Assembly (NCBI GenBank): GCA_024516155.1
Contig: JAJJXM010000069.1
Span: 237,939 to 301,938 of the forward strand
Length of the DNA stretch: 64,000 nucleotides
Reading direction: 5' to 3'
DNA from: Pyronema omphalodes
Taxonomy: Eukaryota; Ascomycota; Pezizomycetes; Pezizales; Pyronemataceae
Position 1 is the first letter of the stretch, and every line of letters starts with the position of its first letter. This document shows, one piece after another, positions 7,359-45,382 of the stretch. The position numbers were made by a program, and so were the translations under genes. The notes below the pieces were generated by a model. That model made no database searches, was not told the DNA's origin, and worked only from the letters and a program-made list of their open reading frames with translations.

Positions 7359-7361
7359 TCC

Positions 7362-11017: not shown

Positions 11018-11079
11018 TCCTCGCCGCCGTAACCCCCGCGCTGCCTGTCGTCAGTAACCGTGGATACGGATTCTGATAT

Positions 11080-11089
11080 TTGATTGCGT
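11080..11089 (+). other. G2 putative self-priming primer-binding site
   Basis: TTGATTGCGT, one base after the 5' LTR, pairs with 10699-10708 over 10 bases. It is not a tRNA-type site. Confidence 0.65.
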
Positions 11090-11176
11090 CCTGTGTCCGA
11101 CACCCAACGCGGAACGAAGACCCAGAAAACCCAGAAAACCCAGAAGACCCAGCAAACCCAGAAGAAGGCGCACACA

Positions 11177-20472: not shown

Positions 20473-21368
20473 AACAATCATTTCCCAGCGGTGGCGCAAG
20501 CAAGTGCGGCACGCATACAAAAATCATGTAGCTGCGGGCAGCTACATGACCCCGAGTTAGAATGGGTGATCCGACACCGAAGGATGGACCCGCAAAAAGC
20601 CTGCAAGGCATGGCAGAAAGGAAAGAGACTCTGCAACGTGTGCAAATTCCTGGTCAACAAAGACGGACACGACTAGAGATGCGGCATCAGGGGATGGAAA
20701 CCCCCCACGGAGACCCAGGCAACGATACCACCCTGCAAGGACGAGCCCGGGACAGGAAAGGAACCTCCCGTCCCTACGGAAAATCAGGAAAACGAACCAC
20801 CCCGTCCCCGCGAACTGGAATCGGAGGACCCCACCATCCATACGATCCGACACCAACTCCCAGTGATTATGATGACTGGAACCTCAGACCACGAGAAGGT
20901 GGCGATCAACCTGTCTTTCTATCAGACAGCAGAGCCGGAACAGCATCTCCCCACCGTCGACTGCCGACCAACCAACGACCTGACATCCGCCCCTTGTTCG
21001 CATCCCCCGGAGCCCCCCCCCTCAGGGCACCAACAAGATCAAATACCCCCGTTCTCCTTGGGGCACCGACAAGAACAAATAACGGCGCCCCCCTTAGGAC
21101 ACCAACAAGAGCAAGTACCGCCTTATGTCTTCGAGGACATCACCCAGGACATTGTACGTCGCCGACGTCGGGGAAGGCAGTATCAGGGACGGTCCCCCAT
21201 CCGGAGGCCCGCATGGGACTGCCTACGGGCTCGCCGGAGTCTCGGCCTGGAGCGGGGGGGCTTATCTCACCACGCTCCCGTGACATGCTCCTGGCCTCCG
21301 CCGTAACCACCGCAGGGCTATGGGTGGTTGCCATCACCCTAGCAACCTGCTACACCATCATGAAGTGA
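20456..21368 (+). pseudogene. G2 ORF3 remnant: Cys/His motif, Pro-rich repeats, C-terminal membrane segment
   Basis: No known family is recognised. The block CSCGQLHDPELEWVIRHRRM and then ACKAWQKGKRLCNVCKFLVN (about 20525-20660) aligns with G3 ORF3 (CYCGETHSPEL..., CHRCGFLVN), keeping the Cys and His positions. A TAG at 20674-20676 interrupts the frame. The same frame then continues with a Pro-rich part holding three GHQQEQ-like repeats (about 21017-21120) to LERGG, encoded by the polypurine tract. A one-base change in the G-run (21252-21260) separates it from the membrane segment DMLLASAVTTAGLWVVAITL, which is encoded in the LTR and stops at 21368. Confidence 0.7.
21252..21260 (+). other. 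G2 polypurine tract region
   Basis: A GGAGCGGGGGGG-type run lies just before the 3' LTR start at 21265. It lies within ORF3 coding sequence, as in G3. Confidence 0.65.
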
Positions 21369-21678
21369 TAGGGATAGGGTTAGGGCAAGGGGCTGGGCCC
21401 CTTGCCGGGGATTTTCATATGTTAGGAGTTATTTATTATTTGAATTTATTTTAGGTATCACGGCGGCTAGGAAGATGTTGGAATCTTTTACTTATCTCTT
21501 TTGGTATGTACTCTTTCTTTATTATTTGGAATCACGGCGGTTAGCCAGGTAGTTATCTCTTTTTGGTATGTACTTCTTCTCTGTTATTTGGAATCACGGC
21601 GGTTAGCCAGGTAGTTATCTCTTTTGGTATGTACTCTTTCTTTGTTATTATTATTTGGAATTACGGCGGTTAGTTATC
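21265..21678 (+). repeat. G2 3' LTR, left part
   Basis: Matches 10092-10505. It includes the ORF3 C-terminus, the 10-bp inverted repeat (21384-21406) and the tandem array, and is cut by C1. The start is TCTCACCACG instead of TGTCACAACG. The LTR sequence equivalent to about 10506-10647 is missing from both parts. Confidence 0.85.
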
Positions 21679-26644: not shown

Positions 26645-29600
26645 CTATCCCCTTCTGCGAGGCTTCTCTAGCCGGGAGTGTGCCCAGGTCGAGGTAGCAA
26701 CCTTGGTTGCAGAGATAAAGGTGGAAAGAGCCTTGGTGCCGGAGGGGGTGTCCAGAATGGTGTTTAAGTTGATCCGGGAGTGTTGTCTGAGTTTGAGGTC
26801 CTTCCTGAGTGTGGAGCGAGCGGCCTGGAATTCGGGGCAGCTCAGGAGGAGGTGTCAAGGCGTCTGCGGTGGGTGGATTGGGCAGCTGCAGCTGCGGGAG
26901 GGGTATGCGTCGGATGGAGGGTGGGCCAAGCAGTTGAGGAAGTACCCGTGGCCGGTGCGAAGACCCAGGATTGCAGTTGATATCCAGCGGGGGTTTTCGG
27001 TGTACGCAGTGTCCATTGTGCGGCGGTGTGTGGCGGTGTACGTGCGCGGTCGGGGGGAAGAGGTGAACCAGGTAGCCCAGTCTTCGGTGTACCTCTCTCG
27101 AGCGCGGCGGCGCAGCCAAGTGAGGGATATCGGTATTCGTCGGCGTGGCGGTACTGTTGTCGCCTGTTGGGCCAGTTCGTCGGCGGCTTCGTTTCCGGGG
27201 ACGCTAGTGTGTCCTGGGACCCAGTGGATGGTAATTGAGGTACCGTAAGCGTGAAGGTCGTGAGCGGTCTTGTGGATGGCCCAGGTGAGCTCCTGGCCGG
27301 GGCCTCGACGGAGGTGAGAGGCTCGATGTATCGCGGCCTGGTTGTCGGTAAAAACGTGGATGTGTTTGTCGTATAGGTCGTTGCGTCGAATATGTGTCAG
27401 GCATGTCCGGAGTCCTTCGTGGATGGCCATAACTTCCGCGTCGAAGACTTCTGTTCTGTCGCCCATGGGCACTATGGAGTCGACAGGTCGTGGCAGCCCG
27501 TGGGGGATGGTGTATCCTGCGCCTGTTATGCCGTCAAGTTGAGAGCCGTCCGTGTACAGTAGGATAGTATCCGATCGTTGGCGAAGGGCGTGGAGGAGGA
27601 GGAGGTGGTCGTCGGCAGCGTCAGCCTTCGGGGAGGAGGAGATGTCGATCGTTAATGTAGGGGCGAGGTCATCGTTGGGGATGTTTTGGGAGGTGTCCTC
27701 GATTTCGGCGTTTGGTTGGACCCACGGGGAGAGGGTGCTGATGACGTGCAGGAGGCGGGACGGGGCTTGTCCTGGGACGTGCCACGGGTGGTCGTACTCG
27801 GTGTCCGGGTTGATGGAGGCATCCTCGATACTCGGGGCAGGAAACGAGACGGGGCAGCGTGTGATGATAGGATGTGAAGCGGGTAGAGTGAGGGTGCGCA
27901 GGGCGTATTTCCGCTGGCGGTTGTCAAGACGTATTGTGACGGGCGGGAGTGCGGATTCATTGTGGAGGGCCAGGATCGGAGTAGAGGTGAAAGCGTTGAG
28001 AATCCTGCGGAGGGCGGTGTTCTGTTGATTCTGGAGGGTGCGGGCAAGGTCTTTCTGTTGGTTCCACCATATCTCTGCGCCGTAGTCTGCTCTCGACTGG
28101 ACACACGCCTGGTAGATTAGTCTTGTAGCAGCGGGGGACAGACCTGTTTCGTACCGTGCTAACCTACACAGTGCGTTCAGAGGTCTTTGCGCGGCGGTTA
28201 CTCGTCTAGCTACATGTTTTCTAAAGTTAAGTTTCCTATCTAAATACAGGCCTATCCACCTCACAACATCCTTCTCTCCTCCTTGTGTTCCCGGTGTGAT
28301 AACTGTACCGTTTGGTAACTTAACTTTTTCCTCCTCAGTGATGCTATCGGTGCGTGCCCAGTGGAAATGCAGGAGCTCTGACTTGGCATCGTCAAATGCA
28401 ACGGCGTTTGCGTCGGCCCACCGAAAGGCTGTCGTCGTGATGTTCTCAAGTGCGCGGGCGTTCGCTTTTCTGGTGCGTCCCTGGACGACGATCGCTACGT
28501 CGTCAATGTAGCTAGGTGTCCAGGCGTACGGGTGTACCTGTGCTAGTTCGTCGAATAATGGGCGGAGGTATAATAAGAAAAGTATGGGGGATGCAGGGGA
28601 ACCTTGTGGGATGCCTGTTTGCACTGGGCGTTGCGTGTCAGTTCGCCCATCGAACGCTAGAGCGATCGTGCGATCTGCGAGGAAAGACTGGCACCACGAT
28701 ACTACTGGTCGCGGGCACCCAAGCTGTCGTAATGTTTGTTGGAGGCGGTCAGCAGAGACGTTGTCGAACGCTCCACGAACATCGAGGAAGAGGGCAGAGG
28801 TTAGCATTCCGTGAGATTTCCCAATCTCGACGTCGTGCACCAGCGCCATCGCCGCGTCAATTGCTGATCTCTGCGGGCGTCCACCTATTTGGTCTCTATG
28901 TAGTAAGTCGTGAGAGTCTGCCATCGTGCCCAGGCGAGTGGCCATTAGTTTTTCGAGGGTCTTCCCAAGGCAGTTTAGGAGCGCAATCGGACGGTATGCC
29001 TTTGGATTGCTGTAATCCGGCTTGTTGGGTTTGGCGATAATGACTGTGGTGGCCTGGCGCCAGCATCGCGGATGGTAGCCTACCGTCCCTAATATGGCGT
29101 AGAGGTTGTTCATGTGTTCGGGGATGGCAAGGTATGCTTGGCGTAGGCAGGCGAATGTGAGCCCATCGGGTCCGGGCGCCTTCTTCGGCGAGGAGGAGAA
29201 TATCGCTGTTTCTACCTCTGTCGGTGTAAAGGTTGTCCACTGCAACTCGCGGCGCGGGGGGAGGACGGACGGAGGCGGTGGTGGCGGCGGCGGGGGGAAA
29301 CAACTTTTGGAAGGCCTCTACCTTTGCCTCGAAGGAGCTGCAGATTGTTTCTTGGCCGTTTATCATTGCGCGGAGGTTTGGTGTTAGCTGAGCACGCCGA
29401 GGGTTGGTGTACCTAAACGCCTGCCACACATCGGGTCCTTCGGCTTGGGAAAGATATTCCTTCCACTTTGCATCTTTCGCCGTTCGAATGGTCCTGTGGT
29501 ATTCGTTTCGGTGTTGTTTGTAGTTTAGGTGGGATCTATCGTCACGTTTGCGTTTCCACTTACGTCTTGCTTTGGTCATCTTTTTCCTTGCCTCGGTGAC

Positions 29601-30566
29601 TTCTGTGGTCCACCATCTTTTCGATTGCGGGGTCACTTGTAGTACGGGGGTGGACGTAGTTGCGGCATTAAGGATGGCATCACGTATTGACTCCGCCCAC
29701 GCATCGAGGTTGTCTGTGGTAGGGTGGTTGCGGTATTGTGTCCATGACGGTGTGAGGGCTAAGCACGAGGCACGGAGGGTTTCGGCGAAGAGTTCCCAGT
29801 CCGTCTTTTTCCAGTTCAGTCGGTTTGTTGGGGGGGTTTGTTTCAGCGTCTGGGTGGGTTGTGTGCACTTCGAAACGTATGACTTCATGGTCAGATCCCG
29901 TAGCGTTGTCGTCGTCAATTGCCCAGTTGATTGTTTCCTCTGCCATGTGGGGCGATGCTAGGGTCAGGTCGAGGACGGAAGAACTGCGGCCTTGGTTGTA
30001 GTAGTAGGTGGGAATGTCAGGGACGGACACGAGGGTCCAGTCTCGTTGTTCGATGAGGTCAACTATTTCGGTGGCGCGGGTGGGGGTACGTGTGGAGGAG
30101 TTCCACAGGGCATGGTGAGCGTTGAGGTCACCTGTGATGATGCACCTGTGAGGGAGGGGGAGGGGGTGAGGGCTCTCGGGATGGTATAAATATTGCTTTC
30201 GGGGTGTTTTTCGTTGTATATATTAAAAAGAAAGAAAGAAGGAATTAAGTCAGTGCCTACCTCAAGGACCTGGAGGTCAGGATCCGCGCATATATCGGTG
30301 CGTTGAGAAACCCTGAGGTATGGGTTTGTCCTGGTCACATAGGCGGCTGTTCTGTTGGTGGTTCTATCTCCACGCGGTGGCAAGACCAGTGTGAAAGATG
30401 GGTGTGTGGTGGCATATGTTATGTCGGTTATGTGAATTTCTTGTATTAGGATTATGTCGGCTGTGCTGTGTGCGCTATTCAGCAGCGCATCGAGTGCTGA
30501 TCGTTGTCGGTTCACGTTGTGGGAGACGATCCGTATGGTTGCTGCCAGTCTGTTGTAGCTAGACAT
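26645..30566 (-). pseudogene. LINE F1 ORF2 (AP endonuclease, RT, RNase H, CCHC)
   Basis: The ATG at 30566 starts MSSYNRLAATIRIVSHNVNR and overlaps the ORF1 stop by 8 nt. Endonuclease signatures are present (QEIHITD, SVLDLTLASPHM, GSDHEVIRFE) but the frame shifts near 30140, 29840 and 29280. From 29245 RT and RNase H are open: APGPDGLTFACLRQAYLAIP, GIPQGSPASPILF, YIDD, YTDGSQ, FDAEV, FTDNQAA, PGHTSV. A TGA at about 26855 sits where Arg is expected in PPQTPRHLLLSC, consistent with CGA to TGA. The C-terminus reads through to TAG at 26645. Full family length is about 1,300 codons. Confidence 0.87.
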
Positions 30567-32269
30567 GGGCGTTCATCTCAGTGTCTCTGTCGGCTGGGTT
30601 GGGTGGGGCGGCGGCGGGGTTTGGTGACACTGTCCAGGCTTCTTTGAATATGCGGATGCGTACGGGGCACTGCTTGCTGAAGCCTGGGTGGTCGAGGTCG
30701 GGGAGGTTGGCGTCCGCGCAGTTTTTGCAATGGTATCTAGTGTGCTCACAACTCTTACCTTTGTGTTGGGGGCAGTCGTTGCAGGCGTGGTCGTCCGTGG
30801 GGTGGTTCTGGCCGCAGATGCCGCAGGTGGGGCCTTGCCGTCCAGGGCTGTTGGTGTAGTGGTGGCCAAAGAGCAAGCAGCGCCGACACTGGTCGGTCCG
30901 TCGGGCAGAGTGGTACTCGGTGACTCTTCGGGGCTCGAAGAGTACCATGACTCGTTTGCGCTTCAGGAGTGCGAGCTCTTCGGCGGTACGTACCGCAATA
31001 ACCACATTGGACGCTTCCTTGCCCACACGTTTCTCCGCGGTCGTCATATATCGGGGGGGGTTGCGCCAGGGTGACATGTCCGTTGCTGCGTTCGATCTCC
31101 TCTTGGAGGAGGCGCATTCCGTCGGGGGAGTCGGGGGATTGGCTCGTGGGGATTCCATGAACTGCGAGCTTATACCACAGCTCGTTCAGGCGGGGTGCGG
31201 CGATGGAGGTGTTGACCTGTTGCGTCGCTGTGTGTATGGTCCCTAGGTTCTTGGTCAGCTCGGATTCAGTGGTGCCGTCTGTCATGGTCACGATGAGGTT
31301 TCCTGATGAGGCTTGTCTGATCGTGGCGACAGCCATATGAGGCGGCGCCTGCGTCTGGGTGAGTGCAGCGTTGATCGCCCTTCCCAGTTGGGCTTTGGTA
31401 TTGACGTCGATTTCCGCAGGGTGTGGGATGGGTATCATGATGGACTGGGGGGGGGTGCGTTGACGTCGGGGGTGCGGTTTTGCGGGGGGGTTGCTTTTGG
31501 GGGCGTGGGCGGGGAGGGAGAGGTCAGCGACGGTTGTGCCGGAAGTCCACGGCTGGTGAGTGGTCGTGGGGGGGTTGTGGCGGCGAGTAGTGGTGGAGGT
31601 CGGTATGGCGATGTTGTGGTGGCGAAGGGCGTTTTCCAGGAGACGGCATCGTTCTTTCCAGTATTGGAGGTCGTCGGGCGGTGAGTTGGCGGTGGTCGTT
31701 TGTTCGGGGTGGGGTTGACGTTGGGGCTGTGTCGGAGGGGGCGGGCTGGGTTTTGTGATTTTGTCGAGTCTTTTGTTGATGGTGTCGATGGAATGGACAA
31801 TAGGTCGGAGCGCGTCGTTGGTGTTTTTCGAAATCATAGCGGCGATGGCTGAGAGGAGGTTGTTGTCGGGCTGAGGCTGGGGGTTGGGGTTGACGTCGGA
31901 AGCAGTTATTGCGTGTTGGCTGTCGTTGAGGTTTAGGTCAGAGTCGGATTCGGAGTCGGTGTCGGGGCAGCTGTCGGTGTCCATAGCGGTCGGCATTGTT
32001 TCGACGGGGGTCCCATCGAGGTTCACGTGGGTGTTTGTTTTCGGTCGGGTAACATTTTTGCGGAGGAGGTCGAGGTCACGTCTAGAGGCGGATTTTTTGG
32101 TGGGGGGTTTGGTGACTTTTCCGGAGGCGGTCGTTGATTTCTTAGAGGTCGCGATGGCGGAGGAGCCAGCGTGCGGGGCGTTGACTCGGGAAAGCTCGTC
32201 GGGGCTAAAAATATTCTCGGGTACCTGCATACGCGAGGGCGTGGCGGGGATGGGTGCGTTAGCGTCCAT
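30559..32269 (-). pseudogene. LINE F1 ORF1
   Basis: The ATG at 32269 gives MDANAPIPATPSRMQVPENI. A Pro/Thr-rich N-terminal half is followed by an ordered domain (LNELWYKLAVHGIPTSQSP) and knuckles starting CRRCLLFGHHYTNS and CGICGQNHPTDDHACNDC. A G-run near 31050-31058 shifts the frame, so the knuckles are read in the frame of 31158-30559. One knuckle Cys is changed (TNSPGR, against TNCTGP in F2). It ends at 30559 within the 8-nt overlap with ORF2. Confidence 0.85.
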
Positions 32270-32705
32270 CGCTTAACCGGTGGTACGGTAAGCGATGGCG
32301 AAGAGTCACGTGAGGAGGCTCTTGCTAAACGAGCACGAACATTTTTCGCGAGGAAAGGGGTCCGGAGGGGGGGAAATTAGGGGTATCACCACAACCAGTG
32401 CTGCTGGTGGGGGGGGGATTTGGGGGGGGGGGGGGGGGGATTTCGGTATGCCGAAACCGAAAATAAGGTCGGTTTGATGATTGGGGGGCGGGTGGTGGAG
32501 CGGCGTTGATGAAAGTGCCCGGAATCCGGCCCGGAGGTCCCAGAATCGCGTTTTTCCGCTGAATCTCAACGGTAAACGGTAGCTGGGTTCCGGAAATCGA
32601 GATTCGGGGTAATTCCGAGGTAAGAAATCGATTGCCGATTCGAAAATCGGGGAAATTGTTGTTGTTGTCGCAAATGCAGGGGGGGGTCAGCGGTTGCTGT
32701 GTGGT
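32270..32705 (-). other. 5' UTR of LINE F1, with 5' terminal box
   Basis: The 5' box lies at 32666-32705 (ACCACACAGCAACCGC, a C-run, TGCATTTGCGACAACAAC). Long G/C homopolymers occur near 32409-32438. It is nearly identical to F2 and A2. Thirteen extra bases (32706-32718) link it to F2. Confidence 0.8.
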
Positions 32706-32718: not shown

Positions 32719-33895
32719 GAGCACGCCGAGGGTTGGTGTACCTAAACGCCTGCCACACATCGGGTCCTTCGGCTTGGGAAAGATATTCCTTCCACTTTGC
32801 ATCTTTCGCCGTTCGAATGGTCCTGTGGTATTCGTTTCGGTGTTGTTTGTAGTTTAGGTGGGACCTATCGTCACGTTTGCGTTTCCACTTACCTCTTGAT
32901 TTGGTCATCTTTTTCCTTGCCTCGGTGACTTCTGCGGTCCACCATCTTTTCGATTGCGGGGTCACTTGTAGTACGGGGGTGGACGTAGTTGCGGCATTAA
33001 GGATGGCATCACGTATTGACTCCGCCCACGCATCGAGGTTGTCTGTGGTAGGGTGGTTGCGATATTGTGTCCATGATGGTGTGAGGGCTAAGCACGAGGC
33101 ACGGAGGGTTTCGGCGAAGAGCTCCCAATCCGTCTTTTTCCAGTTCAGTCGGTTTGTTGGGGGGGTTGTTTCAGCGTCTGGGTGGGTTGTGTGCACTTCG
33201 AAACGTATGACGTCATGGTCAGATCCCGTAGCGTTGTCGTCGTCAATTGCCCAGTTGATTGTTTCCTCTGCCATGTGGGGCGATGCTAGGGTCAGGTCGA
33301 GGACGGAAGAACTGCGGCCTTGGTTGTAGTAGTAGGTGGGAATGTCAGGGACGGACACGAGGGTCCAGTCTCGTTGTTCGATGAGGTCAACTATTTCGGT
33401 GGCGCGGGTGGGGGAACGTGTGGAGGAGTTCCACAGGGCATGGTGAGCGTTGAGGTCACCTGTGATGATGCACCTGCGGGGGAGGGGGAGGGGGGTGAGG
33501 GCTCTCGGGATGGTATAAATATTGCTTTCGGGGTGTTTTTCGTTGTATATATTAAAAAGAAAGAAAGAAGGAATTAAGTCAGTGCCTACCTCAAGGACCT
33601 GGAGGTCAGGATCCGCGCATATATCGCTGCGTTGAGAAACCCTGAGGTATGGGTTTGTCCTGGTCACATAGGCGGCTGTTCTGTTGGTGGTTCTATCTCC
33701 ACGTGGTGGCAAGACCAGTGTGAAAGATGGGTGTGTGGTGGCGTATGTTATGTCGGTTATGTGAATTTCTTGTATTAGGATTATGTCGGCTGTGTTGTGT
33801 GCGCTATTCAGCAGCGCATCGAGTGCTGATCGTTGTCGGTTCACGTTGTGGGAGACGATCCGTATGGTTGCTGCCAGTCTGTTGTAGCTAGACAT
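32719..33895 (-). pseudogene. LINE F2 ORF2: intact endonuclease domain, RT absent
   Basis: The ATG at 33895 overlaps the ORF1 stop (33888) by 8 nt. About 390 codons are open. AP-endonuclease landmarks in order are SHNVNRQ, IQEIHITD, ITGDLNAHHALWNS, SVLDLTLASPHM and GSDHDVIRFE. They are followed by the linker domain QSKRWWTAEVTEARKKMTKS and WKEYLSQAEGPDVWQAFRYT. The ORF ends at TNPRRA, where the fusion to F1 begins. It shows the frame that is broken in F1. Confidence 0.87.
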
Positions 33896-35598
33896 GGGCG
33901 TTGATCTCAGTGTCTCTGTCGGCTGGGTTGGGTGGGGCGGCGGCGGGGTTTTGTGACGCTGTCCAGGCTTCTTTGAATATGCGGATGCGTACGGGGCACT
34001 GCTTGCTGAAGCCTGGGTGGTCGAGGTCGGGGAGGTTGGCGTCCGCGCAGTTTTTGCAATGGTATCTAGTGTGCTCACAACTCTTACCTTTGCTTTGGGG
34101 GCAGTCGTTGCAGGCGTGGTCGTCCGTGGGGTGGTTCTGGCCGCAGATGCCGCAGGTGGGGCCTTGCGGTCCAGTGCAGTTGGTGTAGTGGTGGCCAAAG
34201 AGCAGGCAGCGCCGACACTGGTCGGTCCGTCGGGCAGAGTGGTACTCGGTGACCCTTCGGGGCTCGAAGAGTACCATGACTCGTTTGCGCTTCAGGAGTG
34301 CGAGCTCTTCGGCGGTACGTACCGCAATAACCACACTGGACGCTGCCTTGCCCACACGTTTCTCCGCGGTCGTCATATATCGGGGGTGTTGCGCCAGGGT
34401 GACATGTCCGTTGCTGCGTTCGATCTCCTCTTGGAGGAGGCGCATTCCGTCGGGGGAGTCGGGGTATTGGCTTGTGGGGATTCCATGAACTGCGAGCTTA
34501 TACCACCGCTCGTTCAGGCGGGGTGCGGCGATGGAGGTGTTGACCTGTTGCGTCGCTGTGTGTATGGTCCCTAGGTTCTTGGTCAGCTCGGATTCAGTGG
34601 TGCCATCTGTCATGGTCACGATGAGGTTTCCTGATGAGGCTTGTCTAATCGTGGCGACAGCCATGTGAGGCGGCGCCTGCGTCTGGGTGAGTGCAGCGTT
34701 GATCGCCCTTCCCAGTTGGGCTTTGGTATTGACGTCGATTTCCGCAGGGTGTGGGATGGGTATCATGATGGACTGGGGGGGGGGTGCGTTGGCGTCGGGG
34801 GTGCGGTTTTGCGGGAGGGTTGCTTTTGGGGGCGTGGGCGGGGAAGGAGAGGTCAGCGACGGTTGTGCCGGAGGTCCACGGCTGGTGAGTGGTCGTGGGG
34901 GGGTTGTGGCGGCGAGTAGTGGTGGGGGTCGGTATGGCGATGTTGTGGTGGCGAAGGGCGTTTTCCAGGAGTCGGCATCGTTCTTTCCAGTATTGGAGTT
35001 CGTCGGGGGGTGAGTTGGCGGTGGTCGTTTGTTCGGGGTGGGGTTGACGTTGGGGCTGTGTCGGAGGGGGCGGGCTGGGTTTTGTGATTTTGTCGAGTCT
35101 TTTGTTGATGGTGTCGATGGAATGGACAATAGGTCGGAGCGCGTCGTTGGTGTTTTTCGAAATCATAGCGGCGATGGCTGAGAGGAGGTTGTTGTCGGGC
35201 TGAGGCTGGGGGTTGGGGTTGACGTCGGAAGCAGTTATTGCGTGCTGGCTGTCGTTGAGGTTTAGGTCAGAGTCGGATTCGGAGTCGGTGTCGGGGCAGC
35301 TGTCGGTGTCCATAGCGGTCGGCATTGTTTCGACGGGGGTCCCATCGAGGTTCACGTGGGTGTTTGTTTTCGGTCGGGTGACATTTTTGCGGAGGAGGTC
35401 GAGGTCACGTCTAGAGGCGGATTTTTTGGTGGGGGGTTTGGTGACTTTTCCGGAGACGGTCGTTGGTTTCTTAGAGGTCGCGATGGCGGAGGAGCCAGCG
35501 TGCGGGGCGTTGATTCGGGAAAGCTCGTCGGGGCTAAAAATATGCTCGGGTACCTGCATACGCGAGGGCGTGGCGGGGATGGGTGCGTTAGCGTCCAT
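33888..35598 (-). pseudogene. LINE F2 ORF1
   Basis: The ATG at 35598 gives MDANAPIPATPSRMQVPEHI. A G-run of 11 near 34774-34784 shifts the frame by one base. The C-terminal 413 codons (from 35129) read well: NERWYKLAVHGIPTSQYPDS, the knuckles CRRCLLFGHHYTNC and CGICGQNHPTDDHACNDC, then CEHTRYHCKNC and QCPVRIRI. With the run corrected it would be complete. The acidic part has DTDSESDSDLNLN. Confidence 0.85.
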
Positions 35599-36031
35599 CG
35601 CTTAACCGGTGGTACGGTAAGCGATGGCGAAGAGTCACGTGAGGAGGCTCTTGCTAAGCGAGCACGAAAATTTCTCGCGAGGAAAGGGGTCCGGAGGGGG
35701 GGAAAATTGGGGTATCACCACAACCAGTGCTGCTGGTGGGGGGGGGGATTTGGGGGGGGGGGGGGATTTCGGTATGCCGAAACCGAAAATAAGGTCGGTT
35801 TGATGATTGGGGGGCGGGTGGTGGAGCGGCGTTGATGAAAGTGCCCGGAATCCGGCCCGGAGGTCCCAGAATCGCGTTTTTCCGCTGAATCTCAACGGTA
35901 AACGGTAGCTGGGTTCCGAAAATCGAGATTCGGGGTAATTCCGAGGTAAGAAATGGATTGCCGATTCGAAAATCGGGGAAATTGTTGTTGTTGTCGCAAA
36001 TGCAGGGGGGGGTCAGCGGTTGCTGTGTGGT
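35599..36031 (-). other. 5' UTR of LINE F2, with 5' terminal box
   Basis: The box lies at 35990-36031, with homopolymer-rich leader. Its outer end abuts the 15-bp target duplication. A small palindromic GGTATGCCGAAACC-type motif lies near 35770. Confidence 0.8.
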
Positions 36032-36217: not shown

Positions 36218-36416
36218 ACACCACACGGCAACGGCAACCCCCCCCCCCTGCATTCTCAACAACGAGCACCGAAACCCCCGGTTTTCTCATCGGATTCGGA
36301 TTCGCAGCACTCTGTTACATTATTCTCTGAATTTTCAGGGAATTCTACGTCGTTTTTGTTGACTTTTGTTGCAAAATCAGAGTTTTCACGAGTTCTGGCT
36401 TACCCCACCTCACGAA

Positions 36417-36991
36417 ATGTCGCCAAAACAACGACAGAACAACGCCCAACGATCGAAACGGTCCGAAAACGCGTATAACGTTCTAGCCGACCCTCCTTAT
36501 GATGGATCCAATCCTACCTTTGATGGAAGAGATGGAAAAGTTGATGAAGTTGATGGAAACCTCGCTGGAAAGCCCTTCCAGAGCGTGGTCTTGGCAAGAT
36601 CACCAGTTCCTTCGGCTTCAACAAAGCAGCAACAGGCGACAACTGAACACAGCCGGTTCAGTAACTACCGTCGCTTGTGTGTATCTGCGATTAATGAGGC
36701 AGTCGCAGCTGATGACAACTATGTCACCCTGGATCAGCTGTTCCATGACAACTACGCCGAACTCACTGGAGCCAACTTCCTGGGGATACAACAGATCCAC
36801 CGGGATACACAGCGACGCTTCAATACCCTCGATGAATCCATGCGCAACAACAACGATGCGATACACGGCAAATTCGACGTCATGATGACGAAATTCAACG
36901 ATCTGCTCTTCGAAAACGCGACGCTGCGCACAGCATACGACTCTACACAGGCAGAAACCGCAGCTCTCAAGGCTGCTGTGGACGCCCTGAC
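36417..36991 (+). pseudogene. C2 ORF1-like gene, 5' half, interrupted by G3
   Basis: ATG 36417 (MSPKQRQNNAQRSKRS). It matches C1 and C3 through the coiled-coil region to AALKAAVDALT, where G3 inserted at CTGAC (36987-36991). The frame is intact up to the insertion. The second half resumes at 44503. Confidence 0.85.
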
Positions 36992-37948
36992 TGTTAGGCA
37001 CCACCGACGGTTAGGCAAGGAGGTAGGCAACACGATTGTTCTTACGGTAGTCCTGTTGAGAGTTCTACAGGAAGGGTTTCTAGGAGGGGAATTCTCTAAC
37101 GTGGGGAAAGGAGTGAAGTTGGGGACGGAGTTGGGGGTCTGGGGTTAGGGTTAGAGGTTACTCCTATTCGGTGATCTCGTTCACAGAAAGGACGGACGAA
37201 TCAAGGGAGAAGAAGGTGGATGTTGAAAGTAAATTGATTGCGTGGAGAATATCTACGTGTCCTATCTATGCCCCTTTATACCTTTTCGTCCCTCCTCTTC
37301 TCATCGACGCCCGAGGGTCAATTCTGTCGTACCTTCGACACTTCGGATTTCCCAGAATCCTCCCCGTCCTTCTCCACGCCTCAACCTGTAATTACAATGT
37401 TTACTAACTAATACTTCTAACTATTACGTGATGCCTTTCGCTTCCTTTTCCCCCTTTTTATTCTTTTATCTTTTCACCGCTCGAGTCCATTCGCGAGCTA
37501 AGCGAGCCTCGCTTGCCTCGACATTTTCATACCCGAAACCCCTTCTTCGCCTACACCTTTTTCGCCTATCTTTTTCCCTACTCCTTTTCCGATCCGTTTC
37601 ACCGAGCGTCTTCGTTCTTATCGTGAAGCCCCTGTTCGTTCGGGGTTCCATAATTCGAGCAGCGGAATTGTCATAGCTCGCTTCCTCACGGTATTCCGGT
37701 TAACTCCCCGCTCCCTGATTCCCTATCGCGTTCCTCGCTTCCATCCCTCATTCGCTTATTTCTTTTCTCGTTAATTCCTTCCTGAGGGGGTGTATCAACC
37801 CTAGCCTCGGAATCCCCAACAATGGTGATTTCCTAGTCTTTCCTCTCCGTGGTAAATAGGTACCCTACGGCCACGGTTATGCCCAGTGTCCAAAAGATAC
37901 CCACCGTAATGGAGGCTCCTAAGAGCATGTCAAAGTTGATTCTTGACA
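36992..37948 (-). repeat. G3 3' LTR (left on the + strand)
   Basis: 957 bp. On the minus strand its first 116 bases encode the C-terminus of ORF3. It contains TATAAA (37275-37280 region) and the self-primer complement at 37234-37243. Open frames on the + strand here (37171-37407, 37428-37676) are antisense and are not considered genes. Confidence 0.93.
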
Positions 37949-38537
37949 ATAGCCCCCTCTCCAGGGCCGAGGCTCCGACGAGGCTTCTCGGGGGTGGTGA
38001 TCCCATGAGGGTTTTGTGGGGTTTGTAGAGAGGTGGGTTCGATCGAGGATTCGGGTCAGATTGTCGTTGGGGGGAGCGTTGGGAGCGAGGTTCGTTCGGG
38101 GGGAACTCCGCGGTTTGGTCGGGGTTCGTGGGTGGACTTCGGGTCAGAGTAAAGGTGGTTCGGTGGGAGGCAAGGCATCTTTCGGCGTGGTTGGTCAGGT
38201 TGACCAGGAATCCACAGCGGTGGCAGATACGACGGCCTTGTTGCCAACGTCGGCAGGCTTTTCGAGGGTTGAGACGTTGTACTTGGATAATCTCGTCGAG
38301 TTCGGGTGAATGGGTTTCGCCGCAGTAGCAGTGATCGGTGGGGTATCCGTTTTCTCCGGAGGGTTTGAAAGGGTTTTTCTGTTGTTTTTCTTGTTGATGG
38401 TGGGTACAATGACGTTCGTGGCAGAACGTCCAGTGGATATTTTCGTGGGGTAAGTTTAGGAAGGGTAACGAGGGAGGGAGATCGTGGTTCCGGCCCAACG
38501 TCTCTGCCGGGGTATCTTCCCGGGAGTAGGAACTCAT
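37833..38537 (-). CDS. G3 ORF3: unknown protein with Cys/His motif and C-terminal membrane segment, runs into the LTR
   Basis: 234 residues and no family recognised. The ATG is 5 nt after the pol stop (TAG, five A, ATG), which suggests reinitiation. Visible features are Cys pairs at 39/44 and 70/72, the block CGETHSPELDEIIQVQRLNP (72-91), C95, CHRCGF (105-110) and H117/C121, possibly zinc-binding. A Pro/Arg/Ser-rich stretch (130-190) follows. A hydrophobic segment of about 24 residues (205-228) near the C-terminus ends in TTERKD and looks like a tail anchor. Codons 193-196 are the polypurine tract, and from residue 197 the code lies in the 3' LTR. The G2 remnant conserves the Cys/His block and membrane segment. 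The nef-like position is seen; any function is unknown. Confidence 0.8.
   Translation of the reverse strand: MSSYSREDTPAETLGRNHDLPPSLPFLNLPHENIHWTFCHERHCTHHQQEKQQKNPFKPSGENGYPTDHCYCGETHSPELDEIIQVQRLNPRKACRRWQQGRRICHRCGFLVNLTNHAERCLASHRTTFTLTRSPPTNPDQTAEFPPNEPRSQRSPQRQSDPNPRSNPPLYKPHKTLMGSPPPRSLVGASALERGLLSRINFDMLLGASITVGIFWTLGITVAVGYLFTTERKD
37949..37961 (-). other. G3 polypurine tract
   Basis: GGAGAGGGGGCTAT reads up to the 3' LTR on the minus strand. It is embedded in ORF3 (codons for E-R-G-L). Confidence 0.75.
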
Positions 38538-38542
38538 TTTTT

Positions 38543-41500
38543 CTAATTTTGGGGGGATGGTTTCCCGGGGTATTTCCGATGGAATTCCGCAACTACTTCG
38601 GGGGCGTTATCGAAATTGGTGGCGGGATACCAGGCTTTGTCTTCGTCGTGGAATCCCTTCCACTTTACCCGGTATTGGAGACGGTTTCGTGATCGTCGGG
38701 AGTCTATGATCTCTTCGACCTCCCACTCCTGTTGACCGTTGACGATGATAGCCGGTGGGGGAGGTTTGACGTGGCCGGGGATAGGTGGGTATTTCGTTGT
38801 CGCGGGTTCGAGTAGAGATACGTGAAAAACCGGGTGAAGTTTTACGCCGGGGGGAAGGGCTAACTTATAGGCTTTGGTTCCTATTTTTTCCAAGATCGAG
38901 TACGGGCCAAGGAGCTTATGATCCAGCTTACTTGACGGGCGAGTTGTTTTTATATATTTTCTTTTTAACCAGACCTTGTCTCCTACGGCTAGGACGGGGT
39001 CTGGCTTTCTTTTCTTGTTAGCTTGCTCCGCTTGTTCCGACTGCGCCCATTGGATATCTGCTTGTAGTTGTTGGTGCAAGTTTTTCAATGTGTCGATGTA
39101 CGTGATAGCCTCGGGGGTGGGCTCCCTTGCGGCACTAAGGTCTGGTTGGAATCGGGGGTGGTATCCATAGTTAGCGAAGAAGGGTGTTAGGCCCAATGTT
39201 TCTGATTTGGTATTGTTATAGCAGAATTCCGCTATGGGCAGGAGGGTCTTCCAGTTGTCCTGTTGGTAGTTGCAGCAGGCACGGAGGTATTGTTCGAGAG
39301 TAGCGTTTGTTCTCTCCGTTTGTCCATCAGTTTCTGGGTGGAAGGACGTACTGAGGCTTCGAGTGGTGCCCATAGTCTCCATAATCTGCTTCCAGAATTT
39401 CGATGTAAATAGTGACCCTCGATCTGACACAATGCTGCCTGGAAGACCGTGGGGGCGCACGACGTGTTGGACGAACCCCTCCGCTAGGTCTTGGGGGGTC
39501 ATGGTTTCTTTGCAGGCCACGAAGTGCGCCATCTTTGTTAACCGGTCAACAATTACCCACAATGCGTTGTCTCCTCCGACTTCTGGTAACCCAGTGATGA
39601 AGTCCATAGAAATGGAGTCCCAAGGTCTTATTGGTAACTGTAGGGGTTTCAGCAGTCCGAAAGGGGCGTGACGGATGGGTTTGATTCGCTTGCACGTGTC
39701 GCAATTGTCGACGTATCGTTGGATGTACTGACGTTGTTGCGGCCAATAGTATTTTCGAGTAATCAGCTCCAGCGTTCGAGCTCTTCCTGGGTGTCCTGCG
39801 GTTAACGCGTCGTGATGGTCGTGAAGGATTTTTAGTCGCAATTCGTCATCTTGGGGAATCCAGATGAGTCCTTCGTATGTCAGTAGCCCCTCTTCTTCCT
39901 TGCAAAGTCCTAGCGCTACTCTGGTGTCTTGTTTCTCCCCGTTTCGTAGTTTCGTTAGTATCCCCTCAATTTCCTGATCCTCCACCATTTTTTCTTTTAT
40001 TGTGGCTAGCAGTGCTTCGTCTTCACGTAATCGAGTTAAACTAGTTGCGTACGCTTCTAGGCTGGGCATAGGCGCTAAATTGGTAGGTTTAAACACGGAG
40101 GGGTCTAGCCGAGAATCGTTTGGGTTAGGCGAGGGTTTTGCTAGGCTTACTACACTAGCCGAGAAAGATTGTTCTGGCAGTAGTATGCGGTCTTTATTCT
40201 GTCGATGTTTTGCCTCCCCTTCCCAGGGCGAGTCTCCTGACTCGCGAGATAAGATGTCCGGTTTCCCCGCTAATTTTCCTGGCCGATAAACAATGGTGAA
40301 GTCGTAATTAGCGAGGACTTCGCCCCACCGTGCCTGACGCAGGTTGAGGTCTTTTTTCGTTTTCCAGTACTCCAGATTCTTATGATCGGTGAGGATTTTA
40401 ATCTGGTGCTGAGTGCTCTTACAGTACGTAGCCCATTTCTGGAGGCTTTCTACGATGGCTAGGAGTTCCTTGTCGTGAATGTCGTAGTTACGTTCGGCAT
40501 CCTTCAGTTTGCGTGAGAAGTATCCTAAAGGGTGTAGGATTCCGGCTTCATCGGGCTGAGAGCAGACTGCTCCAATGGCGTAATCCGAAGCGTCGGTTTC
40601 CAGTGTGAGTGGGCGAGTAGGTTCGAAATGTTTTAAGATTGGTTGAGAGATCATAGCCTGCTTTAAGCTGTCGAACGCTTGTTGGGCTGCGTCGTCCCAT
40701 ATGAATGGTGCATCTTTTCGTATAAGCCTTGTGAGGGGGGTAGTGATTTTACTGAAATCTCTTATGGACCGGCGATAAAAGTTCCCGAACCCCAGAAAAC
40801 TCTGGATTCCCTTTACGTTGCTAGGTTCCTGCCAATCTTTTACGGCTCTTATCTTCTCCGGGTCCATGGATATCCCATCTGGGGCAATGATATATCCGAG
40901 GTATTCTGTTTTGTTGGTATGGAATTCACATTTGCTCGCCTTCAGGTTAAGGCCCACTTGTCTGATTCTTTCCAAAATGAGGCGCACATGTTTTCGATGG
41001 GTTTCCATGTCATCCGAGTAGATTAGGATATCGTCGAGATATGCGATACAGAAGATGTCCAAATAGTCACTCAGCACTTCATTCATCCAGCGTTGGAACG
41101 AGGCCGGGGCATTGGTTAAGCCGAACGGCATGACGAGGTATTCAAACAACCCATATTTTGTCCTGAATGCAGTCTTCCACTCATCGCCTTTTGCTATTCG
41201 GAGGTTGTGGTAGGCGTCTCGTACGTCCAGTTTGGTATAGACTTTTGCTTTTGCCAACCTATCCAACGCTTCCCCGATTAGTGGTAACGGAGTTCTATCT
41301 TTTATGGTGATAGCGTTGAGTCCTCGATAATCCACGCACAGCCGGAGGCCTCCGTCTTTCTTTTTCACGAAGTGGATGGGGGCTCCTGCGGGAGATGTAG
41401 AGCTACGTATCCATCCTTTTCTTAAGCTGTCATCGATGTATTCTTTTAAGGCTTGTAGCCTATTTTCATCCAGCGCCCGTAAAGGTTCGAACGGAGGCAT

Positions 41501-41660
41501 CTTGTCGTCTATCAAGGGTATTCGATGATCCTGATGACGGTGGGGAGGTTGTGAGCTATTCCTCTTTTCCGTAAAGACCCTCAGATAGTCATGGTATTCC
41601 TTTGGGACAACATCCTCGGGTTTTGGCTTGTTGGGGACATTCTCGTTTATGACTTTTTGG
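38543..41660 (-). CDS. pol: G3 Pol: RT, RNase H, integrase, chromodomain
   Basis: Open from the protease-RT linker (about 41660) to TAG at 38543, more than 1,030 codons. It begins HRHQDHRIPLIDDKMPP. RT has [25 protein letters not shown] and the catalytic YLDD. RNase H has ETDASDYAIGAV and YDIHDKELLA. Integrase has a zinc finger ending CDTCKRIKP, then SMDFITGLP, SDRGSLF and QTERTN, with 35 residues between the last Asp and Glu. The chromodomain is at the end (WEVEEIIDSRRSRNRLQYRV, WKGF). All catalytic residues are present. It is one base out of frame with protease at an A-run near 41650. G2 reads through the equivalent linker in one frame, so this is probably a mutation. Confidence 0.93.
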
Positions 41661-42420
41661 GTTTCTCGCTTGAGGTCTCGGCTATTTCGTAGTATTCGTC
41701 GGGAGCGGAAGGTTGTTGGAGCGTGAGGGTATTCCGGATATCACCACTCGTGCCCTCCTCTGGTTTTCCTTCTTGGTCGTGAACAAGACAAATGTCGTCA
41801 TTTTCGCTGGGGTACTCGTCATCGTCTTCAGTACTTCGGTCCAGGCTGCGGTTTCCTTCTGGGTTGAAATTGCGTTCGTACAGTCGGATTGCTGCTTCCT
41901 CCGGGACAGTTTTGGCGTGGGGGGACAAATCCAAGCATTCCCTTGCACATTTTTCGGAGTCGAAGGTTACCTTTCCTTCCTTCCAATCAATGTTCGGATT
42001 GTGTTTTTTCAGCCATGGCAATCCTACGATGATGGGGGAATTGCCTATGGTGATACAGTGTAATTTAATTCGTTCGTGGTGATTGTTTATGGTCAGCCAC
42101 ACGGTGGTGTCGTGCGTGACTGGTCCGCTCGCAATTTCCCTCCCGTCTACGGTTAATACTCTTCGTACTATTGTCTTTTTATCAAGGGGAAGTTTGATTT
42201 TTCCGGCGTAGTCTTTGTCTATGAAGTTTTCGGTAGCCCCGCAGTCTACCATAGCTGTAGTTTTATGTGTCTCTTTGTTTTTTCCTTGAATCCTGACTTC
42301 TAAAATAATTTTCTCGTCACGTTGGTATCTCCCTATACTCGAAATAATGAAGGGATTTTCCGGAGGCTTCGGGTTAATGTTTTTCTTCCCCAGGAGTGTG
42401 TCCGTCTTCTTTACTCCTGG
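41647..42420 (-). CDS. G3 aspartic protease and acidic linker
   Basis: In the -1 frame relative to gag, open from near the gag stop and with an ATG at 42252. The catalytic triad is in MVDCGATENFIDKDYAGKIK. Flap and substrate-fold residues include GNSPIIVGLPWLKKHN. An acidic linker (RSTEDDDEYPSENDD) follows, as in G2. It ends at TAA 41647 just after KPKKS, one base out of frame with RT. It cuts the Gag-Pol precursor in particles. G2 and G3 share CCCCAGGARTAA at the gag end, where the frame change must occur. No classical slippery heptamer is visible there. Confidence 0.85.
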   Translation of the reverse strand, partial: PGVKKTDTLLGKKNINPKPPENPFIISSIGRYQRDEKIILEVRIQGKNKETHKTTAMVDCGATENFIDKDYAGKIKLPLDKKTIVRRVLTVDGREIASGPVTHDTTVWLTINNHHERIKLHCITIGNSPIIVGLPWLKKHNPNIDWKEGKVTFDSEKCARECLDLSPHAKTVPEEAAIRLYERNFNPEGNRSLDRSTEDDDEYPSENDDICLVHDQEGKPEEGTSGDIRNTLTLQQPSAPDEYYEIAETSSEKPKKS

Positions 42421-43481
42421 GGATCCTCTTTTCCCGATTCGTCGGTTTCCTCACTTTCGTCCATGGTTGTTTCTGCAGCTCGGAAAGGTTTCTTCGGAGG
42501 AAAAGGCTTTTTGTTGGGACAGCGGGCGGAGAAATGTCCGGTCTTTCCACACCGGAAACACTCATTATTCTTTCGTCGTCGTTCTTCCTCGAGTCTATCC
42601 CTGCCTCGGGATCTTCGAGTGGCGTCAAGTTCCATTGGGGTGGGTTCGGGTAGCACGTTGTCGTGAGCTCGTGAGTACGGGGCAGAGGTCTCTCTAAAGT
42701 CCCGGTAATACGGGGGGTCACTTCGGGTTCGAAGCGTGCGGAAGTTGAAGAGCCGGTTGTCAAGGGCGATGGATTTGTTGACATAATCCGTGATGTTCCG
42801 GGGTTTTTCGTCAAGGAGAGCGAGTTGCTTCTGGACTTCCATGTTCAATCCATCGTGGAATTGGTCGATATACATGGCGTCGTTATAGTCTAAGTCTGCC
42901 ATGATTCGCTGGAAGTCCGCCCAGTATGCAGCTGCGGAACGATTTCCCTGCTTGATTGTCTTGAACTTTCGGCGAGCCACCTCTTTGCTGTCCGCTTCCC
43001 CAAACGCCCTACTGATGGCGGTTTTGAATTCCACCCAAGTCGCATATTTGGGGACCCCCTCTTGCATGGATGGTTCGATCCAGGACCATGCGTTTCCTCT
43101 GCATCTGGCGCTGGCATAATTGACCTTCTTACTGTCTTGGTCGAATTTGTTTGCCTCGCAATTGAATTTCAATTCGCATTGGATGAGGAATGCCCGTAAC
43201 TTCGATCTCTCGCCGTAGTACAGTTCCGGGTCTTCTATTTTCGGCTGCCCAGATAGAGGAGGTTGGTAGAGCTGTTGTAGGAGCATTTGGAGTTGGTCCG
43301 TTGTCATTTGGACCGCCGAGAAGGGGGGTCCTGGGTTTCCGAGCGGAGTTGACATTCCGGAGTTGTTTTCGTCCGTAGCGGGGGTTTGTGGTCTCGATAG
43401 GTGTTCTGGGGTTACGGGGCTTGCAGGTCGGGCGTGTTCGTCGATTGCTTCGCCGAGTTCCTTGAATTGGAAAGGATCCAG
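42411..43481 (-). CDS. gag: G3 Gag polyprotein
   Basis: The conserved region starts at FQFKELGE, but the first ATG in frame (43355, MSTPLGNPG) lies downstream of it. I place the start at a CTG (43481-43479) with A at -3 and G at +4, aligned with a GTG in G2. The frame is open back to a TTG in the primer site (43535). Gag core: YYGERSKLRAFLIQCELKFN, YASARCRGNAWSW, FGEADSKEVARRKFK, AYWADFQRIM. The zinc knuckle CFRCGKTGHFSARC is near the C-terminus. It stops at TAA 42411. No internal damage seen. The start remains uncertain. Confidence 0.88.
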   Translation of the reverse strand: MDPFQFKELGEAIDEHARPASPVTPEHLSRPQTPATDENNSGMSTPLGNPGPPFSAVQMTTDQLQMLLQQLYQPPLSGQPKIEDPELYYGERSKLRAFLIQCELKFNCEANKFDQDSKKVNYASARCRGNAWSWIEPSMQEGVPKYATWVEFKTAISRAFGEADSKEVARRKFKTIKQGNRSAAAYWADFQRIMADLDYNDAMYIDQFHDGLNMEVQKQLALLDEKPRNITDYVNKSIALDNRLFNFRTLRTRSDPPYYRDFRETSAPYSRAHDNVLPEPTPMELDATRRSRGRDRLEEERRRKNNECFRCGKTGHFSARCPNKKPFPPKKPFRAAETTMDESEETDESGKEDPQE

Positions 43482-43529
43482 CGTCGGAGGGAGTGGTATC
43501 TTGTCGGGTGTTGGGTACCTCGGGGGGAG

Positions 43530-43539
43530 ACGCAATCAA
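43530..43539 (-). other. G3 putative self-priming primer-binding site
   Basis: TTGATTGCGT on the minus strand, one base after the 5' LTR. It pairs over 10 bases with ACGCAATCAA in the LTR (43783-43792, minus strand). Confidence 0.65.
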
Positions 43540-43540
43540 A

Positions 43541-44497
43541 TGTTAAGCACCACCGGCGGTTAGGCAAGGAGGTAGGCAACACGATTGTTCTTACGGTAGT
43601 CCTGTTGAGAGTTCTACAGGAAGGGTTTCTAGGAGGGGAATTCTCTAACGTGGGGAAAGGAGTGAAGTTGGGGACGGAGTTGGGGGTCTGGGGTTAGGGT
43701 TAGAGGTTACTCCTATTCGGTGATCTCGTTCACAGAAAGGACGGACGAATCAAGGGAGAAGAAGGTGGATGTTGAAAGTAAATTGATTGCGTGGAGAATA
43801 TGTACGTGTCCTATCTGTCCCCCTTTATACCTTTTCGTCCCTCCTCTTCTCATCGACGCCCGAGGGTCAATTCTGTCGTACCTTCGACACTTCGGATTTC
43901 CCAGAATCCTCCCCGTCCTTCTCCACGCCTCAACCTGTAATCACAATGTTTACTAACTAATACTTCTAACTATTACGTGATGCCTTTCGCTTCCTTTTCC
44001 CCCTTTTTGTTCTTTTATCTTTTCACCGCTCGAGTCCATTCGGGAGCTAAGCGAGCCTCCCTTGCCTCGACATTTTCATACCCGAAACCCCTTCTTCGCC
44101 TACACCTTTTTCGCCTATCTTTTTCCCTACTCCTTTTCCGATCCGTTTCACCGAGCGTCTTCGTTCTTATCGTGAAGCCCCTGTTCGTTCGGGGTTCCAT
44201 AATTCGAGCAGCGGAATTGTCATAGCTCGCTTCCTCACGGTATTCCGGTTAACTCCCGGCTCCCTGATTCCCTATCGCGTTCCTCGCTTCCATCCCTCAT
44301 TCGCTTATTTCTTTTCTCGTTAATTCCTTCCTGAGGGGGTGTATCAACCCTAGCCTCGGAATCCCCAACAATGGTGATTTCCTAGTCTTTCCTCTCCGTG
44401 GTAAATAGGTACCCTACGGCCACGGTTATGCCCAGTGTCCAAAAGATACCCACCGTAATGGAGGCTCCTAAGAGCATGTCAAAGTTGATTCTTGACA
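43541..44497 (-). repeat. G3 5' LTR (right on the + strand)
   Basis: 957-bp partner of 36992-37948. It includes a telomere-like GGGTTAGGGTTAG on the + strand near 43692. Confidence 0.93.
43783..43829 (-). promoter_or_regulatory. G3 TATA box and self-primer sequence
   Basis: On the minus strand TATAAA starts at 43829 and ACGCAATCAA starts 37 nt downstream at 43792. The spacing and the ten bases are the same as in G2, although the surrounding LTR sequence differs. Confidence 0.7.
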
Positions 44498-44502
44498 CTG
44501 AC

Positions 44503-45382
44503 AAAGAAAATCGACGAACAGCAACAAGTCATTTCGGCGCCCCCCTCACCGAACCTCACGGCCTCTTCCTCAGCGATGGAAGAGATGACTATGCAACTGT
44601 CCGTCGTCCAACATGACATTCAGGATGTCCTGGACGCTGTCCGCAACCCTCCTGGCAAGAGAAAGCGAAGGGGAAGCGACCAGAACACCGAACCCACCTC
44701 ACCAACGACCAGAGCACCGGTCAACCACAAACCGAGAGCTGCATCACCAGTGCGAAGCCTGATGCACTCGAAACATGCGACTACCGCCGCCCAGGACAAG
44801 CTTGATGCCCTCAAGCCTATGTCCCCCCTACCTCTCCTCGCGATCACGTCAACCGATGCGACACCGGAACCTCACCCTGACAGTTCATCTGCTCAGGACA
44901 CACCTCTACCCGACGCCCCAAGCACTGCCCCTGCTGAGACGAACGGATGGAAGACTGTGGAGGCGAAGGCTACGCAGAAGAAAAAGATGAAAGCGCAGGA
45001 GACGAGACCTACGGCAGCGACACCCAGCAAGACCCCTACAACGAAGAATGGTGGAAGGGGAAAGAATACCCACCAACCCAGACAGACAACCCCCTCCGCA
45101 AAGAAGACTTGGGCAGAAGTCGTCAAGAGCGGAGGCATCAACGTCCAGATTGTGCTTGGGAATGGCAATCTTGGACTTACAACACCACCGACAAGAAGGG
45201 GAGAGAGGCGAGGCGGGGCAGCGAGAAGGCTGAGGAAGAAGGAGGGAGAAGGGGAGAGAGGGGAGGAGAAGAGGGGCAGGGCGGGCCCGGGTGTTTCAAA
45301 GGGCAAAGAGTCAGGAGACACCGGCGGAGGAGTTGAGAGAGGGGAGGAGAGTGGGGGCGTAGGTGGCCCGGCGGCTGTTTAA
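44503..45382 (+). pseudogene. C2 ORF1-like gene, 3' half
   Basis: It continues after G3 in register: KKIDEQQQVISAPPSPNLTA. It includes the basic cluster GKRKRRG, TWAEVVKSGG and the Glu/Arg/Gly-rich tail ending GGPAAV, stop 45380-45382. Removing G3 and one target duplication leaves one uninterrupted frame, so G3 insertion is the only lesion seen. Confidence 0.85.

Follow-up and report, generated by a model that had tools for sequence, protein, structure and literature searches.

Does a fungal retrotransposon carry a gene that starts where its pol gene ends and finishes inside its own long terminal repeat (LTR)? The usual description of fungal LTR elements includes gag and pol only. We examined a Ty3/gypsy element in a 64,000-nucleotide stretch of Pyronema omphalodes DNA (contig JAJJXM010000069.1, positions 237,939 to 301,938; hereafter the window), in which an initial annotation had noticed a third open reading frame (ORF3) and proposed a Nef-like accessory gene encoding a tail-anchored protein. 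The coordinates (Table 1) confirmed the frame as described: 234 codons, beginning 5 nt after the pol stop codon, reading through the polypurine tract as E-R-G-L and using the first 116 nt of the 3′ LTR, ORF3 stop codon included. We found ORF3 to be the third gene of a chromovirus clade, homologous and in the same place in five families. The shared position and domain order, together with purifying selection, put the frame beyond chance and support the proposal of a conserved accessory gene; that ORF3 is a real gene is virtually certain.

The search of the same genome with ORF3 gave 157 matches, with 150 of 403 candidates scored, and we fetched 20 copies with their flanks (numbered with L below) plus 20 short copies of two of the families, D and E. 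Families A–E were assigned among the 20 flanked copies by identity to the window protein (A, 81–96%; B, 58–64%; C, 43–46%; D, 42–44%; E, 37–38%), and the Cys/His head of ORF3 was 39–77% identical among the five. The order gag, pol, ORF3 within an LTR pair was present in at least two copies of every family, and several of the 20 flanked copies were truncated or interrupted. Approached from the pol side, 69 of 73 scored pol C-termini were followed on the same strand by an ORF3 match no more than 100 nt away; these 73 were the most query-like of 1397 candidates, and the count applies to this clade only. Among the four exceptions, one (C172) was followed after 48 nt by an ORF3 relative interrupted by one stop, another (C197) had its next same-strand match 10.8 kb away, and at the remaining two (C203:4376 and C161:11345) no ORF3 match was seen. 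The presence of ORF3 at the same place in other copies, which the initial annotation had set as a check on its proposal, was therefore borne out. With a distant relative as the query, 100 of 107 scored loci were free of stops across the match, which mainly spans the head. All 13 fetched D copies were full length (312 codons); they were drawn from the upper part of the ranked list, and broken D rows occur lower down. A control gypsy-type element without ORF3 lies in the same window at 1637–7926 (LTRs 98.8% identical, overlapping gag and pol frames, pol 49% identical to that of the ORF3-bearing element); its 3′ LTR begins 40 nt past the pol stop, leaving no room for an ORF3.

Purifying selection acts on the ORF3 head and on the codons within the LTR. 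Between families A and B, the ratio of replacing to silent substitution rates (dN/dS) was 0.11 in the head (100 codons) and 0.22 in the in-LTR part; in the other between-family pairs, where computable, the corresponding values were 0.19–0.39 and 0.25–0.73, which are rough, as silent sites there are saturated or nearly so. Seven within-family pairs gave whole-ORF3 ratios of 0.11 to 0.83, on few changes. Among the D copies, the mean ratio of replacing to silent differences per site (pN/pS) was 0.33 across the whole ORF3, with 0.26 for the first 135 codons, 0.42 for the linker and 0.10 for the last 33 codons. Changes common to at least two D copies comprised 19 silent and 15 replacing ones, where a replacing share of 0.75 would be expected (p = 9e-5); the in-LTR part contributed 2 silent and 0 replacing changes, too few alone. 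In family E (5 and 3 copies), the ratios were 0.62 and 0.72 overall, with some parts above 1. Between families, dN was lower in pol than in the ORF3 head. Silent divergence (pS) between A and B was 0.61 in the ORF3 head and 0.66 at the pol end, lower than in most 100-codon pol blocks (0.66–1.03).

The overlap of coding and non-coding functions is fixed to the codon. In the window, the E-R-G-L codons (GAG-AGG-GGG-CTA) end one base short of the LTR start TGTCAAG, and in all of families A–E, TGTCA, taken as the LTR terminus, starts at the second position of a leucine or methionine codon; primer tract, LTR terminus and membrane-helix start thus coincide at one codon. The junction peptides read L-E-R-G-L-[L/M]-S-R in A and B, M-R-G-G-L-L-S-R in C, W-R-G-E-L-L-S-R in D and W-R-G-G-L-M-S-Q in E. 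In two of nine further copies, the LTR edge given by BLAST lay before TGTCA, by 1 nt (L019) and 4 nt (L025). The LTRs of A and B were barely alignable past their first 35 bp, with only short patches beyond.

Database searches (10, 30 and at least 118 proteins, the last among 7998 candidates) together yielded at least 142 relatives of ORF3. In 48 aligned sequences, namely 47 selected from 142 database proteins and the window ORF3, the counterparts of the head residues C39-x4-C44-x2-H47, C70-x-C72-x3-H76, C95 and C105-x2-C108-x8-H117-x3-C121 were invariant or at least 90% conserved. This set contains the C70, C72, C95 and CHRC 105–108 of the initial annotation and adds C39, C44, H47, H76, H117 and C121; the head is probably zinc-binding. 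AlphaFold2 block confidence (predicted local distance difference test, pLDDT) in the head was 87–93 for residues 71–120, 80–82 for 31–50 and 53–57 for 51–70. The linker is proline-rich and variable in A–E, and its counterpart in one environmental relative is a predicted 79-residue helix. The hydrophobic segment that had been placed at residues 205–228 proved real: the most hydrophobic 19-mer of the window protein spans residues 210–228 within a predicted helix at 197–233 (pLDDT 85–96 for residues 201–230), whose codons lie in the 3′ LTR except for the first base of codon 197. This tail holds a conserved stretch (SLVGASALERGLLSRINFDML in the window) and a helix with a tryptophan invariant in nine aligned sequences.

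A hydropathy scan of 147 sequences, many of them fragments, left 76 that fit the motif pattern and were scored. In these 76, the best 19-mer after the motif ended no more than 12 residues from the C terminus, with a mean Kyte-Doolittle (KD) value of 2.0, and no 19-mer above KD 1.6 stood ahead of the C-motif; judged by hydropathy alone, none had a signal peptide with an Env-like ectodomain. Sequence and model both agree with what defines a tail-anchored protein, a single membrane helix within about 30 residues of the C terminus and no signal peptide, in support of the anatomy proposed earlier. On this basis, the ORF3 product is very likely a tail-anchored protein with its head in the cytosol.

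The only Pfam family touched was WCCH (PF03716), described from retrotransposons and geminiviruses, to which the W-x2-C-x4-C-x2-H sub-motif of the head is alike. The likeness concerns a model of 25 positions: it matched 19 of the 48 aligned members at an E value of 0.1 or below (best 1e-4) and exceeded the curated cut-off at 6 genome loci, one with a stop, and at none in 14 control genomes; it was not among the Pfam matches of the window's own ORF3. No fold match at an E value of 0.001 or below was found in PDB or BFVD with the window model (predicted template modelling score, pTM, 0.33), nor in PDB with the model of a distant relative (pTM 0.28). Among the matches listed, one relative was annotated, in the Pezizales fungus Pyronema domesticum. 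This protein, FPQ18DRAFT_417561 (P0016), is an ORF3 protein annotated as a hypothetical protein of the host. Two metagenome proteins of a further type, F (P0136 and P0137), have the pol C-terminus followed by ORF3, indicating that the position is kept in that type as well.

How would ORF3 be translated? The start codon stands at +3 from the pol stop in three A copies (L009, L010 and L013) and at +5 in the window, at +2 in B (5 copies, L014–L018), at +11 or +13 in C (4 copies, L019–L022), at +5 in D (13 copies including L024–L026) and at −1 in E, where stop and start overlap as TAATG (12 copies including L027 and L028). Among further copies, TAA(A/G)AACC precedes the ATG in 10 of 10 from D and TA does so in 10 of 10 from E. 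Relative to pol, ORF3 changes frame between families and also within A and within C, a purine occupies position −3 of the ATG in the fetched copies compared, and the N-termini are family-specific (A, MSSYS; B, MRNDS; C, MNSGE; D, MASPI; E, MDDIT or MDDRT). A start codon held near the pol stop in shifting frames points to termination-reinitiation, and stop and start overlap or lie a few nucleotides apart, which is the layout of this mechanism. From this arrangement, ORF3 is probably made by coupled termination-reinitiation, for which the available text of one source lists SART1, influenza B, victoriviruses and hypoviruses as precedents (PMC5972666). In that account, SART1 ORF1/ORF2 and the victoriviruses share with ORF3 the overlapping or close stop and start, which is UAAUG in SART1 and TAATG in family E, and differ from it in being other elements with other products (PMC5972666).

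Taken together, the best explanation is an accessory membrane tether made by reinitiation and held by a tail anchor, an explanation whose chance of being right as a whole we put at about even. Ribosomes ending pol would reinitiate a few nucleotides away, at the AUG of ORF3, and therefore yield a small amount of ORF3 protein per Gag-Pol. The C-terminal helix would then be inserted post-translationally, with the zinc-binding head and linker predicted to remain cytosolic. The head may bind Gag particles, the element RNA or the integration complex, or else a partner from the host, and the tail may keep this cargo at an internal membrane, where it would serve assembly, trafficking or transfer. The earlier suggestion of a part in particle release or trafficking is possible. 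A low-abundance tail anchor bearing a cytosolic zinc head, as predicted here, is most simply read as a tether, and we assign the role tentatively, at somewhat under even confidence. As the polypurine tract and LTR terminus are read as the codons that start the tail, reverse-transcription signals and anchor evolve together.

Several observations count against this explanation. The linker is near neutral, with dN/dS of 0.37 between A and B and, on the rougher pairs, 0.56 between B and C and 1.06 between A and C, the highest value obtained. In the 14 codons before the LTR, the replacing-to-silent ratio exceeded 1 in 7 of 9 between-family pairs (maximum 3.4), because silent changes there are few (pS 0.08–0.33), as expected where the DNA itself is needed; this block is conserved as DNA at least in part. 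The proposal withstood the dN/dS check set out in the initial annotation, the head and the in-LTR part being well below 1, although the linker was near neutral and this polypurine block mostly above 1. Intact copies numbered 8 of 12 among the fetched E copies, and 5 of 9 A rows of the search lacked stops, one further A copy (C10) being split in three pieces. The structure models are of low overall confidence, both for the window ORF3 (mean pLDDT 67.8, pTM 0.33) and for the distant relative (head helices, 79-residue helix and tail helix; pTM 0.28), and the weakest tail among the 76 scored sequences reached a KD value of only 0.74. None of 8 copies had TGGGA, motif 1 of caliciviral reinitiation, in the preceding 120 nt; victoriviruses likewise lack it, according to the available text (PMC5972666). 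A spliced or subgenomic ORF3 message is a possible alternative to reinitiation; inspection of the fetched copies, by sequence only, revealed no splice acceptor common to the families.

The near-neutral linker bears on a different role, in which ORF3 would counter a defence or a factor of the host, such as RNA silencing or a membrane-borne restriction factor, and the fast linker would be the arms-race contact. The linker ratio of about 1 between A and C fits this, as does the WCCH sub-motif in the head, and retroviral accessory genes at this place, Nef and Vpu among them, often counter host factors. However, the conserved part is the head and not the linker, and disordered linkers drift without an arms race. 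We consider this role possible yet doubtful.

A second rival role is cell-to-cell spread without Env, for example at hyphal contacts. According to the available text on the insect (Drosophila) MDG1 elements, their sORF2 encodes a membrane protein that plays this accessory part in Metaviridae lacking Env, and the ORF lies downstream of pol in some Lepidoptera elements, which makes the idea worth testing (PMC11952523). The same text describes the FAST/sORF2 proteins as short, often N-myristoylated and bearing a central membrane domain with a polybasic cytosolic tail, encoded mostly upstream of gag (PMC11952523). We did not find this feature set in ORF3, which has a Cys/His head, is very likely tail-anchored and follows pol. 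Its start is not MG, its helix occupies the very end of the protein, the best 19-mer being followed by no more than 12 residues, and its length is 234 residues, or 387 in the database relative P0018. Many fungi, moreover, share cytoplasm through fusion anyway, and we judge this route improbable.

Still less probable is that ORF3 forms a C-terminal part of Pol, reached by readthrough or frameshifting, and is not a separate protein. In L009, L010 and L013, ORF3 is in frame with pol and a single stop lies between them. Two further findings that speak against a reinitiated product favour this option: in the A copy L012 the pol stop is missing and the frame continues into ORF3, and in the metagenome proteins P0109, P0131, P0136 and P0137 a single frame spans pol and ORF3. 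However, the ORF3 stop of L012 is lost as well, and parts of pol or of the chromodomain are missing from the joined metagenome frames, which may therefore be decayed copies; the shifting frames, the TAATG overlap of E and the purine at −3 of the ATG also argue against a fusion. Finally, a chance or decayed frame, or a host fragment hitch-hiking in one lineage, would suit the poorly conserved linker and is already contradicted by the same layout and head identities in five families, at least 142 database relatives and purifying selection, making it scarcely credible.

The comparison with nef holds for position. Primate lentivirus nef and mouse mammary tumour virus sag lie 3′ of pol and extend over the polypurine tract into U3, as ORF3 does. 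Beyond position the likeness found no support: Nef is myristoylated, is translated from spliced RNA and lacks a membrane helix, whereas the ORF3 starts in families A–E lack the MGxxxS/T myristoylation signal, the tail carries a predicted membrane helix, and the low-confidence models gave no fold match in the databases searched. Nef is an analogy of position only. Plant elements such as Retand, Grande and RIRE2 also have conserved additional ORFs between pol and the 3′ LTR; as far as the available texts go, these are env-like in the sense orientation or antisense with a TRP28 domain, unlike ORF3, the sense ORFs of the Retand study have no membrane region, and overlap with the LTR is not mentioned (PMC7264820, PMC11963269). 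In a 2010 paper, fungal Ty3/gypsy elements are drawn carrying an 'additional ORF with unknown function', so this kind of gene has a precedent; the available text gives no element name, position or sequence by which sameness with ORF3 could be checked (PMC2864245). The survey 'LTR Retrotransposons in Fungi', in its available part, describes gag and pol (PMC3248453). We found no description of the ORF3 gene in the literature searched, and the joining of three features, a tail-anchored zinc protein, coupling of stop to start and a membrane anchor encoded by polypurine tract and U3, is new as far as could be seen. That these features define a new fungal accessory class, moving capsids between membranes or hyphae without Env, is unlikely.

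That about a hundred stop-free copies in one genome encode a conserved membrane protein implies that part of the life of these elements takes place at a membrane, and ORF3 supplies a concrete gene with which to address particle trafficking, defence evasion or transfer. Furthermore, one DNA stretch serves as primer tract, LTR terminus and membrane-anchor codons, at the same codon in five families.

Table 1 Features of the ORF3-bearing element, in window coordinates
Feature	Position	Strand	Description	Basis
Whole element	36992–44497	minus	between LTR outer edges	
Target-site duplication, 3′ side	36987–36991	.	CTGAC	
3′ LTR	36992–37948	minus	957 nt; minus-strand start TGTCAAG, end TAACA	
ORF3	37833–38537	minus	234 aa, open; begins 5 nt past pol stop	
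Predicted C-terminal membrane helix	37839–37949	minus	residues 197–233	AlphaFold2 and hydropathy
Polypurine tract region	37950–37961	minus	GAGAGGGGGCTA, read as E-R-G-L	
Cys/His head	38166–38468	minus	residues 24–124	alignments and AlphaFold2
pol	38543–41515	minus	reverse transcriptase (RT), RNase H, integrase zinc domain, integrase core, Tf2-1-like SH3, chromodomain	Pfam
Aspartic protease frame	41647–42252	minus	apart from RT frame in window copy	
gag frame	42411–43535	minus	Retrotrans_gag, CCHC knuckle; first ATG 43355	Pfam
Candidate −1 frameshift site	42429–42435	minus	GGGAAAA ahead of gag stop	
5′ LTR	43541–44497	minus	holds copy of ORF3 tail (residues 197–234) upstream of gag	
Target-site duplication, 5′ side	44498–44502	.	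CTGAC	

By its sequence, the window element is a chromovirus, a Ty3/gypsy element with a chromodomain, as Pfam recognises gag, protease, RT, RNase H, integrase and chromodomain. The pol domains over cut-off follow the order RVT_1, RT_RNaseH, Integrase_H2C2, SH3_Tf2-1 and Chromo; the integrase core (rve) scores 31.2, just below the Pfam cut-off of 32.6. The TG..CA LTR ends, 5-bp target duplication and gag CCHC knuckle are chromovirus traits as well, and the two LTRs, of 957 nt each, are 98.96% identical. The pol of this copy is broken, since protease and RT occupy separate frames; ORF3 is open despite this. The gag end reads GAAAAGA..CCCCAGGA(G/A)TAA in 7 of 10 copies compared (window, L009, L014, L019 and L026–L028), and 6 of these 7, all except the C-type L019, contain GGGAAAA, a plausible and conserved candidate site for −1 slippage.

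The element is inserted in the reading frame of another repeat (36366–36991 and 44492–45382), which continues beyond the target duplication. A second, E-type ORF3 element lies on the plus strand at 10094–13557 and about 20195–21400 and looks interrupted and deleted: its LTR begins TGTCACAACG at about 10094, the gag frame runs from 11084, and the protease and RT frames reach 13557; beyond them lie long interspersed nuclear element (LINE) sequence, a piece of RT starting at about 20195 and the remnant of an ORF3 at about 20467–21368, with the same tail. Two LINE-like units (29390–32705 and 32719–36031) are arranged head to tail at a spacing of about 3329 bp and are 97–99% identical across the blocks compared.
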